Shown here: in pieces, positions 8,480 through 62,700 of the stretch | Layout: the number at the start of each line of letters is the position of its first letter | How positions within the stretch are numbered: the stretch's first letter is position 1 | Source of the DNA: a virus | Virus record (IMG/VR): IMGVR_UViG_3300036944_001324 | Coordinates: 207,655 to 271,654 of that record | DNA length: 64,000 bases | Direction: 5' to 3' (one strand) | The notes under the pieces: generated by a model | The model's input: only the letters and a program-made list of their open reading frames with translations | Told to the model about the DNA's origin: nothing | The model's database searches: none | Made by a program: the position numbers and the translations under genes

Positions 8480-8550
8480 GGGTCAGCTTTGACGCCATAC
8501 AGGAGGACCTTTCGGGGTCCTCCTTTTATGTCGATTCTATTTTTTCTTGG
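8480..8550 (+). repeat. terminator-promoter cassette, copy 1
   Basis: About 71 bases beginning GGTCAGCTTTGAC, running through a GGAGGACC hairpin, TTTTATGTCGATTC and a T-rich tract. It is repeated almost exactly at 10018-10089. The copies differ at a few positions around CGCCATAC/CATCATAT and in the hairpin loop. Each copy is followed directly by an ATATAT-class promoter-like site. Confidence 0.85.
8502..8523 (+). terminator. hairpin terminator
   Basis: An eight-base stem, GGAGGACC/GGTCCTCC, with loop TTTCGG, followed by TTTTATGTCG and an AT-rich stretch. Part of the duplicated cassette. Confidence 0.85.
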
Positions 8551-20603: not shown

Positions 20604-22676
20604 ATGACAAACGAAGAACAAGAGTATCTCAAGATCAACGAGAAGCTGCGTGAGGCCGCGCCAGCGTACTACGTTGAAGACAAGCCCATCATGACCGATG
20701 CCGAATACGATCAATTGATCGTTCGTGCTCGCGAATTGGAAAAGCGTGTTGATAAAGCGATCGTCGATGCTGAACGCCTGAAGGGTACGCCACTGTACGA
20801 CGTGGTTGGATCTGTTGCCAAGGGTCTTAAGCCTGCTAAGCATGAGACACCTATGCTCAGTTTGCGTACTGAGACGAATACTTCCGATGAACCCATCCGT
20901 AATTTCCTGCTGAAAGTGGGAAAGCGGCTGGACGAACTTGGTTTTCCACCGAATTGTACCAGTTACTGTGCTGAGTACAAATTTGACGGACTGGCTTTGA
21001 GCCTCAAGTACAGGGATGGAAAACTTCTCCGTGCAGTTACCCGTGGCGACGGTTACGAAGGTGAAAACGTTACGCATAACGCTCTCGTCGTTAAAGGCAT
21101 ACCTACGACTATCGGTCTGAAGCGGGATCTGGAAGTTCGTGGTGAAGTGATGATGACTAAAGAGATGTTTGCTAGTTTGAATAAGCAAGCATTGATAAGC
21201 GGAAGTCGTGTCTTTGTAAACCCGCGTAACGCTGCCGCTGGTTCCATGCGACTTCTCGATTCGAATGAATGCAAACGACGCGGACTAATCTTTGTTGCTT
21301 ACAGCGCCATAGGGCCTGCGGTTGATATGGAAACCGACAGCCATCTCTATCGCATATTGACCTTGGAAAACCTGGGTTTTGAAATCGGGCTTACACCTCT
21401 ACGTACTAAAACACCAGAGCGACTAGCGGAGTTCTACCAAAAGACTCTCAATGAACGGACCACAATACCGTTTGAAATCGATGGGGTAGTCTACAAAGTC
21501 GACTCTATCGAGCAACAAGAAAAGCTTGGTGTCATCGGTAAAGAACCTGTCTGGGCAATTGCTCACAAGTTCCCACCGGAGGAAGCCACCACCAGACTCG
21601 AGAGCATCGACATCCAAGTCGGGCGCACTGGCAAGTTCACTCCCGTCGCCAAGTTGAAGCCTATCTTCGTGGGTGGCGTTACTGTATCGAGCGTGACGCT
21701 CAGTAACATCTTCGACGTGCGTCGCAAGGACATCCGTCCAGGCGATACGGTGTTCGTTCGTCGTGCTGGTGACGTGATCCCTGAGATCACGACACGAGCC
21801 AACCGTAAGCGTGATGGTTACGTTCCTAACTTCCAGATGCCTCCCCAGTGTCCGGTTTGCGGCGGACTTGCTATCCGTTTCAAAGGCGAAAGCAACTACC
21901 AATGCACCAACAAGTACGAGTGTCCGGCGCAACTCTCTGGCTCCATCTTGCATTACGTCAGTCGTGCCTGTATGGACATCGAGGGTTTTGGTGAAGAGAC
22001 GGTTGACCTGTTGACGAAAGAAGGCTACGTGCGTTCATTCGTTGACTTGTACCGCTTGACACCACAGATCCTTACAGAAGTAGGATTGGGTCCGAAGAAA
22101 GGACAGAACCTGCTCGACGCCATCGATGGTTCTCGTGTGAACTCTCTAGCTCGTTTCATCTACGGGCTGGGTATTCGCTATGTGGGTGCCAACACTTCCA
22201 AGATTCTTGCTAATCGTTTCAAGACGATCGGTGCGCTCTTTGAAGCCAAGCGGGAAGAACTCATCAACCTGCCTGACATGGGGCCCGTTACAACGGACTC
22301 CGTGGTTTCCTACATCGGCAACGCGCACAGGCGAGCGTTGGTGTTTGAGACCATTGCGGTGGGTAAGTTGATTCTGACCACCGTAGAGCAACCTCCAAAG
22401 CCCGTAGGACCGCTCACAGGCCAATCTTTCGTGGTGTCTGGACGGTTGACACACTACGAAGCGATAGAGCCTTCTAAGACCCGTGAAGCCTTCATTGATG
22501 TTTTGGAGGATCTGGGTGCTTCTGTCACCGATAAGGTGAATAAAGATACAACGGCACTTATCATAGGTGAGAAACCTTCGAGCAAGTTAGCCAAAGCGAA
22601 AGCTCTGGGCATCCGTGTTATGACAGACAAGGAAGCCATGGAACAGTTCATGAACCTGGAAGTCTCCACGTTCTAA
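20604..22676 (+). CDS. ligA: NAD-dependent DNA ligase
   Basis: A 690-residue protein with the full domain order of bacterial LigA. The N-terminal Ia domain holds the NAD-binding YY..D.P..(T/S)DAEYD pattern (YYVEDKPIMTDAEYD). The adenylation motif KFDG places the AMP-accepting lysine at 126, with RGDGYEGENVT following. Next come the OB fold (VGRTGKFTPVAKL), a four-Cys zinc finger (CPVCGG ... CTN...CPAQ) near 415-440, the helix-hairpin-helix region and a C-terminal BRCT domain (LTGQSFVVSGRLTH) from about 590. It seals 3'-OH/5'-P nicks using NAD. The length is close to bacterial enzymes (about 670), and all domains appear intact. Confidence 0.97.
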   Translation: MTNEEQEYLKINEKLREAAPAYYVEDKPIMTDAEYDQLIVRARELEKRVDKAIVDAERLKGTPLYDVVGSVAKGLKPAKHETPMLSLRTETNTSDEPIRNFLLKVGKRLDELGFPPNCTSYCAEYKFDGLALSLKYRDGKLLRAVTRGDGYEGENVTHNALVVKGIPTTIGLKRDLEVRGEVMMTKEMFASLNKQALISGSRVFVNPRNAAAGSMRLLDSNECKRRGLIFVAYSAIGPAVDMETDSHLYRILTLENLGFEIGLTPLRTKTPERLAEFYQKTLNERTTIPFEIDGVVYKVDSIEQQEKLGVIGKEPVWAIAHKFPPEEATTRLESIDIQVGRTGKFTPVAKLKPIFVGGVTVSSVTLSNIFDVRRKDIRPGDTVFVRRAGDVIPEITTRANRKRDGYVPNFQMPPQCPVCGGLAIRFKGESNYQCTNKYECPAQLSGSILHYVSRACMDIEGFGEETVDLLTKEGYVRSFVDLYRLTPQILTEVGLGPKKGQNLLDAIDGSRVNSLARFIYGLGIRYVGANTSKILANRFKTIGALFEAKREELINLPDMGPVTTDSVVSYIGNAHRRALVFETIAVGKLILTTVEQPPKPVGPLTGQSFVVSGRLTHYEAIEPSKTREAFIDVLEDLGASVTDKVNKDTTALIIGEKPSSKLAKAKALGIRVMTDKEAMEQFMNLEVSTF

Positions 22677-36847: not shown

Positions 36848-36872
36848 AGCAGAGGGCGCAACGCCCTCTGCT
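36848..36872 (+). terminator. hairpin terminator
   Basis: An eleven-base stem, AGCAGAGGGCG/CGCCCTCTGCT, with loop CAA, followed by TTACTGCG. GCATAAG precedes it. Confidence 0.85.
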
Positions 36873-38179: not shown

Positions 38180-38920
38180 ATGACTCATTCCCTCAAAGTA
38201 CGTTGGGCTATTGCTGCGGCTATCGCTAAGGCGACTCACATTCGCATAGACGACCAAAAGGAGTTGCGCATTACAAGCAACAGTTCCGACGGCACGAGCG
38301 TTACTGTCCAAGACCCCAATTACCCGGACAAGATCATCAAGATCGATCTGGATAATCGCAGTCTTGACAGTCTGAAGTTCTGGACTATGACTCCTGTCGT
38401 CATTCCTAATAACGAGCCGCTGGTGGCCTACTACGAGCTCCTATGTTTTAATCTGGCCGTCGGGTTCTCCGACAAGCAAGGTATCGTGGAGCTTAAGGAA
38501 TCTGTGTTTCAGGTTTGGGAAGACGACATCGAACTGCGCGGCATGCCCAAGAACGGTGCCAAGATACAGATGGCTTATCACGGCTTACCAGACAGTGTCT
38601 ACTCCGCCAGCCACCAGATGCGCGACATCTTGGATGATCCCAACTTCTTGAAGCACAACCAAGCCTACGTGCTGACCATCTGCGTGTTCACAGTAGCCCG
38701 TGCATTGCGTGAGCTGCTGCGTAACAAGGGCTTTAATCTTTCCAACCTCCATCCCGAGATGCCGCTCATCCTGGACATCCCCGCCGATTGGGAAGCCTGT
38801 CGCATCCACAACCTGTGGTGTGGGATCTCTGGTGCTGAGGAGAAAGTGGTCGAACGTGGTCAACTGTTCGAATCCAAAATGGAAAAAGTCGTGGAGGGGG
38901 TTGGGGGGAGGACTCTCTAA
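38180..38920 (+). CDS. hypothetical protein, possible family B member (246 aa)
   Basis: The first 80 residues are beta-rich (HIRIDDQKELRITSNSSDG, PDKIIKIDLDNRS), a degenerate form of the family B core. The rest is helical (YVLTICVFTVARALRELLRN) with a Pro-rich WEACRIHNLW segment. The last gene before the long gene-free region. Function unknown. Confidence 0.6.
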   Translation: MTHSLKVRWAIAAAIAKATHIRIDDQKELRITSNSSDGTSVTVQDPNYPDKIIKIDLDNRSLDSLKFWTMTPVVIPNNEPLVAYYELLCFNLAVGFSDKQGIVELKESVFQVWEDDIELRGMPKNGAKIQMAYHGLPDSVYSASHQMRDILDDPNFLKHNQAYVLTICVFTVARALRELLRNKGFNLSNLHPEMPLILDIPADWEACRIHNLWCGISGAEEKVVERGQLFESKMEKVVEGVGGRTL

Positions 38921-38940
38921 CGCTTCGCTAGTAACTGTCG

Positions 38941-38962
38941 CTTTTACGTTACCACGTAAAAG
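38941..38962 (+). terminator. hairpin terminator
   Basis: A nine-base stem, CTTTTACGT/ACGTAAAAG, with loop TACC, followed by CTCTTTCAATCTCTTAG. Probably ends the 38180 transcript. Confidence 0.7.
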
Positions 38963-39229
38963 CTCTTTCAATCTCTTAGATTTCTAATTGAGTTATGAAC
39001 GTTAGTTCATGATTCTCTTAGGAACTTTGAGGTATCTACTCAGGGGTTCCTATACCCCTGAGAGTTCGTATAAGGCCTTATAAAGCCGACATAAAAGCAG
39101 GAGGGTACACTGACCCTCCTGCTGTAGGTAATAACGCCTTATACGAGCTTTACAGTAGAGACTCGTAGACGAAGTCTACAGTCTCATATCCAGCATGGAC
39201 AAAAATGTCCATGCTCTCTTTATATCTTA

Positions 39230-39410
39230 TGCGCAAGTCGTCGAGCTTTTTCGGCGACTGAGAGAGTACACGGAACATGGACAGCCCGCAGGGATGGACA
39301 GTGGAGAGTACGAACGAAGGAGCATACCAGGGAGAGAGCGTAAGCGATCACACTGAGATACTTCGCCGGGTAGCTACGTATCTCAGATAAGGGGCGTTAG
39401 CCCCTTTTTT
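39230..39410 (+). ncRNA. candidate structured RNA with own terminator
   Basis: Purine-rich stretch bounded by a fully paired stem GTCGTCGA/TCGGCGAC (39237-39258, one G-T pair) and a nine-base stem CTGAGATAC/GTATCTCAG (39353-39386), ending in a textbook terminator GGGGC/GCCCC plus six T (39391-39410). No start codon with a ribosome site is seen inside. Not a tRNA: no TPsiC or anticodon arm can be drawn. The 5' end is a guess. Confidence 0.4.
39391..39410 (+). terminator. rho-independent terminator in gene-free region
   Basis: GGGGC, loop GTTA, GCCCC, TTTTTT. There is no coding gene for 470 bases upstream, so it must end a non-coding transcript or serve as a backstop. Confidence 0.85.
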
Positions 39411-39420
39411 ATTCTTATTC

Positions 39421-39478
39421 TTATTCTCCATATGATTGTTTACTTAGTAAACCTAATTAGACATTCGGTGGAGAATAA
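39421..39478. repeat. nested inverted repeat
   Basis: TTATTCTCCA (39421-39430) and TGGAGAATAA (39469-39478) enclose a second palindrome, GTTTAC/GTAAAC (39438-39452). AT-rich, preceded by repeated TTATTC. Resembles a protein-binding or cruciform site. Confidence 0.6.
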
Positions 39479-39674
39479 TATCTATCCAGCGTTGGAGAGC
39501 TTATAAACGCTGTTACAATGACCCTTGTTTACAAGAGAATGACTATTGGATCGACATTAAGTCGACAGATCGAGCAGGTGTGCTACGTTACACCTGCGCT
39601 GTAACCCTAGCCTAAGAGCTTGGAGAGCAGTAGATCAAAAAAGTTCTTATGTTCAACAAACGAGAGAGTCAAAC

Positions 39675-40349
39675 ATGACAAACAACCAACACGCCAACGC
39701 TGAGAAGATTGAAGTTCAAATTCAAGGTATTTATTTCATAGCGGGCTTGATCAAAGATCAGTGCCAGAAGCTGTACATGCAAGACCCTCAGGTGTTCTTG
39801 GATGACATGCCCACTACGTTCAGCGTATTGGATCTCCTGCAGACCGCTATGGATTCAGTGAGTAACAACCTGGATAGGTACTTCGGTCCTTATGCGGCGT
39901 TTAACGAGCCTCAGCTGACTGATATCGTTTTGGAAACAACTGAAGCGGTTAACCGCTGCCGCGCTGCGTTCATTGTGGACGAATACCCTGTGGACATGCT
40001 GGAGTACCGTGAAACGATGTTGTACAAGCTGCCGCACGTGTACGCTGGTTTGATAGGGTATGCTGAGCAGCTCAAGTACATGCTCGAAGCTGGTAAGGAT
40101 CGGGGTCGTATTAGTCCTCGCAGTGTTTCTCGTGTAGTGTTCGATTTTTATCTGGATGCTATCTTCGAGAAGATCAAGACCAACACCCATGTGTTCATGC
40201 ATGGTCGTTGGTGGAAGATTGAGAAGTGCGAGATCGATCCTACCGATCGTAGCTTGTTTGAGTTGCATCTGGACTTCGATCCTTTGAAGAAGGTTGTGAG
40301 TTCTGCTCATAGCTTGCCTTTGATCTATAAGGCTGCTTTCAAGCGTTAA
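39675..40349 (+). CDS. hypothetical protein, possible family B member (224 aa)
   Basis: A helical first 160 residues, then HGRWWKIEKCEIDPTD and LHLDFDPLKK, which resemble the family B core placed at the C-terminus. GAGAGAG lies before the ATG. Closed by a strong hairpin. Function unknown. Confidence 0.65.
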   Translation: MTNNQHANAEKIEVQIQGIYFIAGLIKDQCQKLYMQDPQVFLDDMPTTFSVLDLLQTAMDSVSNNLDRYFGPYAAFNEPQLTDIVLETTEAVNRCRAAFIVDEYPVDMLEYRETMLYKLPHVYAGLIGYAEQLKYMLEAGKDRGRISPRSVSRVVFDFYLDAIFEKIKTNTHVFMHGRWWKIEKCEIDPTDRSLFELHLDFDPLKKVVSSAHSLPLIYKAAFKR

Positions 40350-40468: not shown

Positions 40469-41680
40469 ATGAGCGCACATATGCAAATCGCTGAACTTCA
40501 TATGCTGGGTCTTTACCTGAAGGTAGTGCGAGACCGGATTGATGCTTCTGCGTCTTCAGATCAACTCTTCCATCCTAAAGCGGAGCTGTATATCCGTAAC
40601 ACGATGATCTTGCTTCACGAGGTTGGTTACAAGAGACTGTTTGACTGGATGAACGACGACGATAAACAGATCGTTGTTCAAACAGCAAAAGAGTTGGAGT
40701 TGTGGTTCGATCCATCAACGGATAAGAAACTCAGGCACGTTTGGTTCAAACTCACGATGACTGCATGCTTGACTTACATAAAGGACAAAATCGAGACTTA
40801 CCTGGAAGATCTGATACGTTCAACTGTGTTCTTCGGTAATCGACACGTTGCTGAAGAAGCACAAGAAGTGAAAGAACCTTCTATCGAAGAAAAGGTAGCT
40901 GAGTTCCTCGAACAAGCTCAGGACCACAAGTACCTTGTTCTGAAACACAACAACTCCACACAGGTCTATGAAATCGACCATGTGTGTAGAACCATGGACG
41001 GCGGCCAACCCAGTGTTATAGCTGTGCGTAGTGTTGAAAGTGATGGGAAAACAGCTAACGCAATTACTTTCTTTATAGCGGCTGTGTTGCTTGGCTCTTA
41101 TGAGATCAGCTTTTTGGACTCACTACCGTCAGGCAAGATCGATGGTGAAGCATTGAGCAAATCAATCACTTCACTGGGTAAAACGTGGGATGATGCAAAA
41201 ACGACATCTTTCATGGAGGAACTCAAACACGCCATGTACGTTGAGATGCCGAGTTCGGACGGGCTTCGTTTGGTCTGGAAGAAAATACGCCAAATTGAAG
41301 GTATTGAGAAAGGCGTTCGTGCGACTGTTATTCACCTGTCGTCATTTGACCCGTTGGATACACACGTGGATGCTTATCCACTGATTAGTCTTCCTGTTCC
41401 AAAGCTGCGGTTAAAAAGGCACGCACCTGTTGACGAAGACATTCTCAAAAAGTGGAGTGAGTTTATTGGCGACATTACACGAACCAGCGATAACAACGCG
41501 TTGGTGAGCGTGTACAAACCTACCGCTCAGCGCTTTCTGCATATAGTGGATGTATCGCATCCTGACGCGGTAAACGAGCGTTCTCTTGGAATACTTGATC
41601 CAATCACCAAAACATCACTTGTGTGTAGTTTGTCTGATCTCATCTTGTCTGGGTGGGTCTTACCAGTGGAGCCCAAGTAA
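40469..41680 (+). CDS. hypothetical protein, possible family B member (403 aa)
   Basis: A helical N-terminal region of about 130 residues, an acidic linker (EEAQEVKEPSIEEK), then two beta-rich regions: KYLVLKHNNSTQVYEID near 153-169, and a second after residue 260. It is the largest of the local set and may hold two copies of the core. Function unknown. Confidence 0.6.
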   Translation: MSAHMQIAELHMLGLYLKVVRDRIDASASSDQLFHPKAELYIRNTMILLHEVGYKRLFDWMNDDDKQIVVQTAKELELWFDPSTDKKLRHVWFKLTMTACLTYIKDKIETYLEDLIRSTVFFGNRHVAEEAQEVKEPSIEEKVAEFLEQAQDHKYLVLKHNNSTQVYEIDHVCRTMDGGQPSVIAVRSVESDGKTANAITFFIAAVLLGSYEISFLDSLPSGKIDGEALSKSITSLGKTWDDAKTTSFMEELKHAMYVEMPSSDGLRLVWKKIRQIEGIEKGVRATVIHLSSFDPLDTHVDAYPLISLPVPKLRLKRHAPVDEDILKKWSEFIGDITRTSDNNALVSVYKPTAQRFLHIVDVSHPDAVNERSLGILDPITKTSLVCSLSDLILSGWVLPVEPK

Positions 41681-60654: not shown

Positions 60655-62700
60655 ATGTTCATCATTGACACCATCAAACGCGCAGTCGGTTACGTTGAAG
60701 TCGAGCAGATCGATCGCCCTGGTAACTATCCGATCATTCGAGTTGTCGGCATCCGTGGCGACTTTCTTGCCAAGGATATTGGTCGCTACTACAGGACCTC
60801 CAAAGTAGCCACAGCTGTATTCGACAAAATAACAAAGAACTCTGTCACGCTCCCGGCATTCTTTGCCTTGGAGTTTGCCAAGTATTTGGAAGACGTGATT
60901 TCGGAACGTAACCACACTTACGTTCCCCGTCGCTCAGCCAAGGCAATACTTGATGGCCTCAAGACAGCCACCTGGCTCAAGAAGACTACAGAAGAAGTTC
61001 CAAGTCGCTTGGACTATTCCAAACTCTCCAATTTTTACTACGAACCAAAACCCTACCAACGTACATGGCTTGAGAAGTTCGAGAAAGTTGGTTACCAGTT
61101 CACGCTCAACGGCTCCATCCTTGATGCTGCCCCCGGCTCTGGTAAAACACTCTCCTCTCTTTTCTTGGTGGAGTGCTCTGATGCTGACGTGGTGATTATC
61201 ATCTCTCCTCAAAATGCTCTTCGACGAGTCTGGGTAAACACCCTTGAGACCGGGATGAAGAAAGCCCCAACTTGGTGGTGTAGCGATAAAGGTGGGGTAC
61301 CAGGTAATGAGAAATACCTGATCTTTCACTATGAAAAGCTGGCTGAGGCAGTTGCCCACCTGACCAAACTCAAAGGCAAGAAGATCGCCATCATTGTTGA
61401 TGAAAGCCATCACTTCAACAACGAGAAGTCTGGACGCACTCAGCTGTTGATCGAGCTGTGTAATAAGTCCGAAAGCAACACGATTGTCCTGCAGTCGGGA
61501 ACTCCTTTCAAAGCAGTCGGTGCCGAGATTGTTCCTGCCTTGTTCTGTATCGACCCCACGTTCAATGACGAATTGGCCGGCCGTTTCCGAAAGATCTACG
61601 CTGCCTCGGCCGACAAAGCTCTTGAGCTACTGATGCATCGGCTTGGGATGATTAGTCACAAGGTGACCAAAGCTGAACTGGGATTACAATCCCCAGTCAT
61701 CACCAACATTGGTGTTACTTTTGATGGTGCTGAAAAGTACACGCTGACGGAAGTAGCTAAAGAGATGAAGAAGTTCATTGAAGAACGCACCTCTTACTAC
61801 AAAGCTCGTCAGAAAGACGACGAGAGCTATTACTTGTCGGTATTGGAGAAACACGAGAAGACACTGCGTGGTCCTCAGATGACCGACTATAAACAGTATT
61901 TGCAGGATGTGAAGATCATTCGTAAGTCTGACCTGCGCAGTATTGGTGAGATCATCCAGCGTGCAAACAGCTACGAAAACCGCGTGATCATCCCTGGCTT
62001 GCAGCAAGGTGAGGTCGCACGCTTCAAGGAAGCCAAGACCATCTACAAATACGTAGTTCTCAAAATCCAAGGTGAATGCCTTGGTCAAGTACTTGGTCGC
62101 AAACGGATGGAGTGCTCCGTAGCTATCTCCAAGAACTTCGATTACGAAAAGTACATCGAATCCACCACCAAGAAAACGTTGATCTACACGATCTACGTAC
62201 AGGCTCTGGAATCAGCAGTGCAGCGCCTGAAGGACATCGAGTACCAGCCTTTGGCGGTCTACGGTGAAACCAACAAGAACTTAGCAAGTATTGTGGAGAT
62301 GTTCGAGAAGAAAGCCGAACTCAATCCATTGGTTGCAACATTCCACTCGTTGTCAACAGCCGTTCCACTCACAATGGCAGATGTAATGGTGATGCTGGAC
62401 GTTCCTTGGCGCGATTACATTTTGCAGCAGACCATCTCTCGTGTATCACGTCTGGGTGCAGATACGCAACCACGTATCTTCATTTGTAACTTGGTCACCG
62501 GAGAAGAACCTAACCTTTCCACAAGGACGGTTGATATTCTTCGCTGGTCACAGCAACAACTGGTTAAGATCACAGGACATGAGTCTCCGTATGCTCTGGA
62601 CGATAAAGCCATCACGGTTGAAGCTTACTCGATGCTCAACAAACCTCTTGATCTCATGACTGATGATCTGGAGTCCCGTTTCTTGGCGCGACTGGCGTAA
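60655..62700 (+). CDS. SF2 DEAD/SNF2-like helicase
   Basis: A 681-residue superfamily 2 helicase. Motif I is APGSGKT with Lys164, motif II is DESH at 249-252, motif III is SGTPF, and motif VI is QQTISRVSRLG near residue 595. Motif Ia (ISPQNAL) and motif V-like (ATFHSLSTAVPL) are also visible. The first 130 residues (a small domain before YQRTWLEKF, the Q-like motif) are specific to this protein. It probably unwinds or translocates on DNA during phage replication or transcription. Confidence 0.9.
   Translation: MFIIDTIKRAVGYVEVEQIDRPGNYPIIRVVGIRGDFLAKDIGRYYRTSKVATAVFDKITKNSVTLPAFFALEFAKYLEDVISERNHTYVPRRSAKAILDGLKTATWLKKTTEEVPSRLDYSKLSNFYYEPKPYQRTWLEKFEKVGYQFTLNGSILDAAPGSGKTLSSLFLVECSDADVVIIISPQNALRRVWVNTLETGMKKAPTWWCSDKGGVPGNEKYLIFHYEKLAEAVAHLTKLKGKKIAIIVDESHHFNNEKSGRTQLLIELCNKSESNTIVLQSGTPFKAVGAEIVPALFCIDPTFNDELAGRFRKIYAASADKALELLMHRLGMISHKVTKAELGLQSPVITNIGVTFDGAEKYTLTEVAKEMKKFIEERTSYYKARQKDDESYYLSVLEKHEKTLRGPQMTDYKQYLQDVKIIRKSDLRSIGEIIQRANSYENRVIIPGLQQGEVARFKEAKTIYKYVVLKIQGECLGQVLGRKRMECSVAISKNFDYEKYIESTTKKTLIYTIYVQALESAVQRLKDIEYQPLAVYGETNKNLASIVEMFEKKAELNPLVATFHSLSTAVPLTMADVMVMLDVPWRDYILQQTISRVSRLGADTQPRIFICNLVTGEEPNLSTRTVDILRWSQQQLVKITGHESPYALDDKAITVEAYSMLNKPLDLMTDDLESRFLARLA

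Follow-up and report, generated by a model that had tools for sequence, protein, structure and literature searches.

A candidate structured non-coding RNA in the longest ORF-free stretch of a phiKZ-type jumbo phage

Few non-coding RNAs of phages are known; the Grad-seq study of phiKZ counts 21 that have been described (PMC8545117). UTR-derived non-coding RNAs built of stem-loops occur in phiKZ itself, one of ~100 nt from the 3'-UTR of PHIKZ298 and another of ~180 nt from the 5'-UTR of p40 (PMC8545117), and a TATG motif marks the late promoters of the same phage (PMC4666361). Here we describe a strongly folded, ORF-free stretch of ~490 nt that ends in a terminator and makes a concrete candidate for a further phage non-coding RNA.

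The window analysed, 64,000 nt long, comprises bases 207,655-271,654 of the virus record IMGVR_UViG_3300036944_001324 (271,654 nt in total); coordinates refer to the window unless the record is named. Its helicase (60655-62700) shares 42.5% identity with the counterpart in Pseudomonas phage Noxifer and 35-39% with those of the other listed phiKZ-type phages, on which grounds the sequence places the source among the phiKZ-type jumbo phages. Close relatives of the helicase, an HD protein, P0005 and the two genes flanking the gap (P0001 and P0002) were sought in phage, IMG/VR and bacterial-genome collections and none were found; P0001 and P0002 also have no counterpart in 50 distant relatives, whose best helicase identity is ~43%. 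ARAGORN detected no tRNA gene anywhere in the record, the window included, and hence no phage tRNA array. The window further encodes an NAD-dependent DNA ligase of 690 aa (20604-22676) that matches PHROG 3869 over nearly its full length.

The gap and its parts

The original prediction held that 38963-39674 carries no gene, and the ORF scan bears this out. The upstream ORF stops at 38920 and the downstream one starts at 39675, leaving a gap of 754 nt (38921-39674) in a genome whose called genes have a median spacing of 70 nt. Within it, 38988-39674 (687 nt) is the longest run without an ORF of at least 60 aa in the 271,654 nt scanned, the runner-up measuring 406 nt. Both neighbours lie on the + strand: P0002 upstream (38180-38920; 246 aa, coding score +46.8) has no Pfam or PHROG match and belongs to no known family, and P0001 downstream (39675-40349; 224 aa, coding score +41.7) has no Pfam match and a weak PHROG match of unknown function. 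ORFs inside the gap reach at most 53 aa, and under a 3-periodic coding model four small ones receive scores of -0.5 to -14, the called genes (median +0.18 per codon) serving as the yardstick. The 406-nt stretch (L011:4708-5113; record 164708-165113) lies in a divergent gap and is stabler on the + strand (z -4.3) than on the other (z -1.8).

Where at least nine inverted repeats had been announced, we count 14 pairs of at least 8 nt. Read on the + strand, the series opens with H1 (38940-38963; perfect 10-bp stem, 4-nt loop), the first hairpin past the P0002 stop, followed by the imperfect H2 (38971-39033; inverted-repeat scan and RNA fold) and by H3 (39039-39062; perfect 9-bp stem, 6-nt loop). 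The two-tier structure formerly placed at 39067-39145 is present with a wider span as H4 (39061-39151), whose 16-bp outer arms, two G-T pairs included, enclose an inner 11-bp hairpin (39096-39123). H5 (39158-39182; RNA fold), H6 (39192-39215; perfect 10-bp stem, then CTCTTTATATCTTATG, weakly terminator-like) and H7 (39236-39259; nine pairs, one of them G-T) lead to a purine-rich, weakly folded linker (39260-39337) with seven GGA and with GAGAG at 39260, 39262, 39304 and 39332. Behind it, H8 (39353-39386) precedes a canonical intrinsic terminator, AAGGGGCGTTAGCCCCTTTTTT, recovered by a terminator scan and with look-alikes in many phages. This terminator had been located at 39391-39410 with no coding gene before it; both points stand, the element covering 39389-39410 once its T-run is included and no scored gene lying ahead of it.

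Past the terminator, in what is presumed to be the leader of P0001, the nested palindrome lies just where it had been described (39421-39478; perfect 10-bp outer arms), and the genome has a single copy of its core GTTTACTTAG. A 7-bp hairpin on the + strand holds GGAGAG within its 12-nt loop (39487-39512; fold and motif count), and the leader also contains a perfect 8-bp hairpin (39574-39597). TCTTATGTTCAA (39645-39656, +), which is common to 39225-39236, is a weak candidate for a TATG-type mRNA start of the next gene, with a low motif score. The TATG sites at 39228 and 39648 (+) have TCTTATGnnCAA in common; their low motif scores led us to reject them as late promoters of the gap. A long-range stem closing 38921-38929 on 39338-39346 is not claimed, since its pairing partner shifts once the flanks are included.

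Short purine motifs recur on the + strand. GAGAG is present in 10 copies against 0.37-0.39 expected, five of them in the purine-rich 39260-39338 and a further one, at 39495, in the loop of a hairpin; 750-base windows elsewhere contain at most five. A-N-GGA occurs six times in 39231-39410, mostly in the linker, compared with 2.9 per 754 nt across the genome. Both motifs were picked after inspection, which makes any probabilities attached to them optimistic.

Fold strength, terminators and transcription starts

Folded as RNA, the gap reaches -291.8 kcal/mol on the + strand (z -12.6) and -263.6 kcal/mol on the - strand (z -8.6; 20 shuffles each), and the 300-nt fold window at 38947 is the genome's top outlier on both strands after G+C correction. 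Random genome pieces give z -1.9 +/- 1.9, and ordinary spacers of the same phage spliced together give z -9.1 +/- 2.6. Excess stability amounts to -0.125 kcal/mol/nt for the gap and -0.165 for 38921-39412, compared with -0.084 +/- 0.018 for the spliced spacers; perfect hairpins number 8 per kb in the gap, 4.8 in other spacers and 1.2 genome-wide. Ordinary spacers are also rich in hairpins, and the yardstick of the original prediction was too generous. The gap exceeds the phage's own spacers about 1.5-fold per base, and its length is its main oddity. Its helices contain eight G-T pairs on the + strand versus two A-C mismatches (G-T on the - strand), and the strand difference per fold window is at most 2.1 SD. 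The + strand carries the G-T excess, both flanking genes and the canonical terminator, which modestly favours a + strand RNA over a role at the DNA level.

The phage's spacers are hairpin-rich because many carry a shared module. TATG closely follows a hairpin in 74 of 222 intergenic hairpin-strand entries as opposed to 11 of 452 in genes, with the consensus TATGYYGT, and the hairpin-TATGYYG association recurs in relatives (odds ratio ~11). Members consist of a perfect hairpin of ~9-13 bp with TATGYYGT immediately behind it, in many cases in mirror image on either side, for example at 8501, 10040, 11840, 40356 and 62707 (+) and at 36848 and 60570 (-). Of the convergent gaps, 16 of 18 contain TATGYYG, compared with 54 of 146 between + genes and only 3 of 19 among the divergent ones; on account of this spread, the hairpin with TATGYYG behaves as a bidirectional transcription terminator, not as a promoter. 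Hairpin density alone is consequently no sign of a cluster of non-coding RNAs in such phages, as the shared module makes the spacers of the present one hairpin-rich by default. Among the hairpins of the gap only 39096-39123, on the - strand, is a perfect hairpin directly followed by TATGYYG; the others are not members. Together with TTTATGTCGG it forms a leftward terminator module running from 39123 to 39085, which also matches a terminator-like scan and has a motif score of 18.8 (99.6th percentile of genic TATG); its hairpin lies at the heart of H4. Other + spacers, too, have unpaired copies of the module on their antisense side.

Divergent gaps yielded a promoter-like motif, AAA..TTTYAGCGATAYATCATCGTTGTGAGATAG. 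Its 24 sites are without exception intergenic and on the + strand, and most lie 57-190 nt ahead of a gene (4833, 8541, 10080, 11923, 17043, 32024, 42808, 57060 and 58744, with 15 more in the record); it is probably a promoter for one of the RNA polymerases that the phage itself encodes. The gap contains none of these predicted promoters, the nearest being 32024 and 42808. A near-identical ribosome-binding context, (TTT)AAGGAGTATCCTCATG, precedes eight genes (9010, 10154 and six more in the record).

Searches for relatives of the gap by blastn against phages (with flanks and as the spacer alone), plasmids and the 50 distant relatives returned only look-alikes of the terminator and of a GC-rich hairpin, the terminator (39389-39410) being the part most often matched in known phages. 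Rfam gave no match at the gathering score and only chance matches below it, and a single-sequence covariance model of H3-H5 produced hairpin-level matches only in the 50 distant relatives. The covariance search in relatives that the original prediction had proposed thus brought out neither homologue nor covariation in these 50. The lack of a homologue does not refute an RNA, because close relatives are absent from the collections. A search of all viral contigs for the hairpin GCAGGAGGGT found seven loci, which look like intergenic hairpins where inspected; a 20-base exact match elsewhere was discarded, as it sits within an unrelated coding gene.

Long ORF-free gaps of relatives fold with z from ~0 to -7, and none is homologous to the present one. 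That of Xanthomonas phage LucasX (L015:11742-12548; 807 nt, unannotated) closes with the terminator module described above, here hairpin-TTATGCTGTC; its - strand folds well, GGAAAG and AAGTGCA recur in it, and the stretch is possibly another long non-coding RNA. A 397-nt gap in another relative (L025:15049-15445) has many hairpins and a strong + fold (z -7.3), and the long gap of a third (L034) contains a tRNA.

Competing explanations

We hold, with moderate confidence, that 38921-39410 gives rise on the + strand to a structured non-coding RNA or forms a very long structured 3'-UTR, and that a structured leader for the gene at 39675 comes after it. The stabler + fold, the G-T excess, the + strand terminator, the absence of a coding ORF and the phiKZ precedent speak for it, as do the record length of the ORF-free run, a fold strength beyond that of the phage's other spacers and the GAGAG excess. 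Against it stand the modest size of the strand difference, the hairpins of ordinary spacers, the lack of a learned promoter in the gap and the failure to find a homologue or covariation in the 50 distant relatives. Transcription passing through P0002, or coming from an unrecognised promoter, would enter the gap on the + strand; the polymerase would run through the row of stable hairpins and the purine-rich linker and halt at 39389-39410. The product could be a structured 3'-UTR of ~490 nt or, by processing or by internal initiation near 39231, an RNA of ~180 nt. Its hairpins would protect it and leave the GGA/GAGAG linker exposed for a protein or another RNA, and the last 264 nt would form a structured leader for P0001. 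As a 3'-UTR product the RNA would most likely begin upstream, with the P0002 transcript as its likeliest origin; that it is made and stable we infer, and its binding partner is a guess. Of the three ideas in the original prediction, which envisaged a cluster of small RNAs, an origin of replication or a packaging/segregation site, a phage non-coding RNA is the best supported, whereas separate small RNAs find no backing in a gap that contains none of the predicted promoters and whose + TATG sites score poorly.

The strongest competitor, unlikely yet deserving serious weight, is a passive spacer in which ordinary terminator and promoter hairpins have piled up, perhaps as the relic of lost small genes, and merely halt transcription from either side and shield mRNA ends without any separate RNA at work. 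Hairpins are normal in the phage's other spacers, two of those in the gap are terminators, one of the standard module and one plain, and neither blastn nor the covariance model found conservation in the 50 distant relatives. Yet most gap hairpins lack a terminator tail, the structure per base rises above that of other spacers and the GAGAG enrichment is unique to the gap; moreover, phages tend to lose useless DNA. The leftward module inside the gap is left unexplained by a single + RNA, and it would find a use in a sense-antisense pair, in which a + RNA ending at 39410 and a - RNA ending near 39085 overlap by ~325 nt and one RNA regulates its partner or the upstream gene. Terminators do point in both directions and the module acts like a terminator genome-wide, but the neighbouring genes are all on the + strand, no - strand promoter was found and the antisense modules of other + spacers can stand unpaired; we regard this pairing as improbable.

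A site acting as DNA, be it an origin of replication or one for packaging or segregation, would account for the hairpin density, the AT-rich stretch at 39403-39475 and a weak local maximum of cumulative GC skew at 41512, ~2 kb away. That maximum sits on a broad plateau, however, with the third-position change point at 47 kb, and the G-T pairs favour RNA; the origin proposed earlier is not borne out, as the skew shows no switch at the gap and there is no DnaA-box cluster and no iterons, and the packaging or segregation site proposed with it finds no support either. We give this explanation very little credence, and just as little to hidden small-protein genes, namely a 37-aa frame on the + strand (39277-39390) or a 42-aa frame on the - strand (39150-39278). 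Each frame is immediately followed by a terminator of matching direction and the 37-aa one has GAGAGAG 10 nt ahead of its ATG, but they score only -4.4 and -0.5, respectively, against the positive median of the called genes, homologues were sought for both and none found, and the 42-aa frame, which crosses near-perfect hairpins, has no Shine-Dalgarno sequence.

Comparison with known RNAs

The structured RNA that we favour has counterparts of several kinds. GOLLD and ROOL are found in phages. Together with OLE they are, like the candidate, long and heavily structured non-coding RNAs (PMC12286853); unlike them, the gap has no Rfam match, and its hairpins form locally, one after another, with no global fold supported. 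RNAs of type III toxin-antitoxin systems (ToxI type) likewise place a structured RNA and a terminator ahead of a gene, but they differ in their tandem direct repeats, of which the gap has only two-copy repeats of 10-13 nt, and the downstream protein here has no toxin-family match.

Titrating sRNAs of the CsrB/RsmZ type resemble the candidate in their repeated GGA in a single-stranded stretch beside a terminator. Such a decoy, with hairpin-guarded ends and a GGA/GAGAG linker titrating a host CsrA/RsmA-like regulator or a phage RNA-binding protein, is a highly doubtful extension of our reading. Where CsrB/RsmZ carry many A-N-GGA in hairpin loops, the copies here lie mostly in the linker and all GGA but one fall outside the loops; Rfam again gives no match, and a search of the phage genome found no CsrA gene. 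If it were true, a phiKZ-type phage would re-tune translation by an RNA rather than a protein.

The closest likeness is to the phiKZ RNAs. Both come from a phiKZ-type phage and lie in a coding-free intergenic stretch with stem-loops and a terminator at the end, where no small ORF is preceded by a strong Shine-Dalgarno sequence, and the gap folds above expectation. The candidate differs in its ~490 nt, its at least eight hairpins and the absence of homology in the searches. The kind of RNA is already known from phiKZ, and by analogy the present one would be a longer, orphan example.
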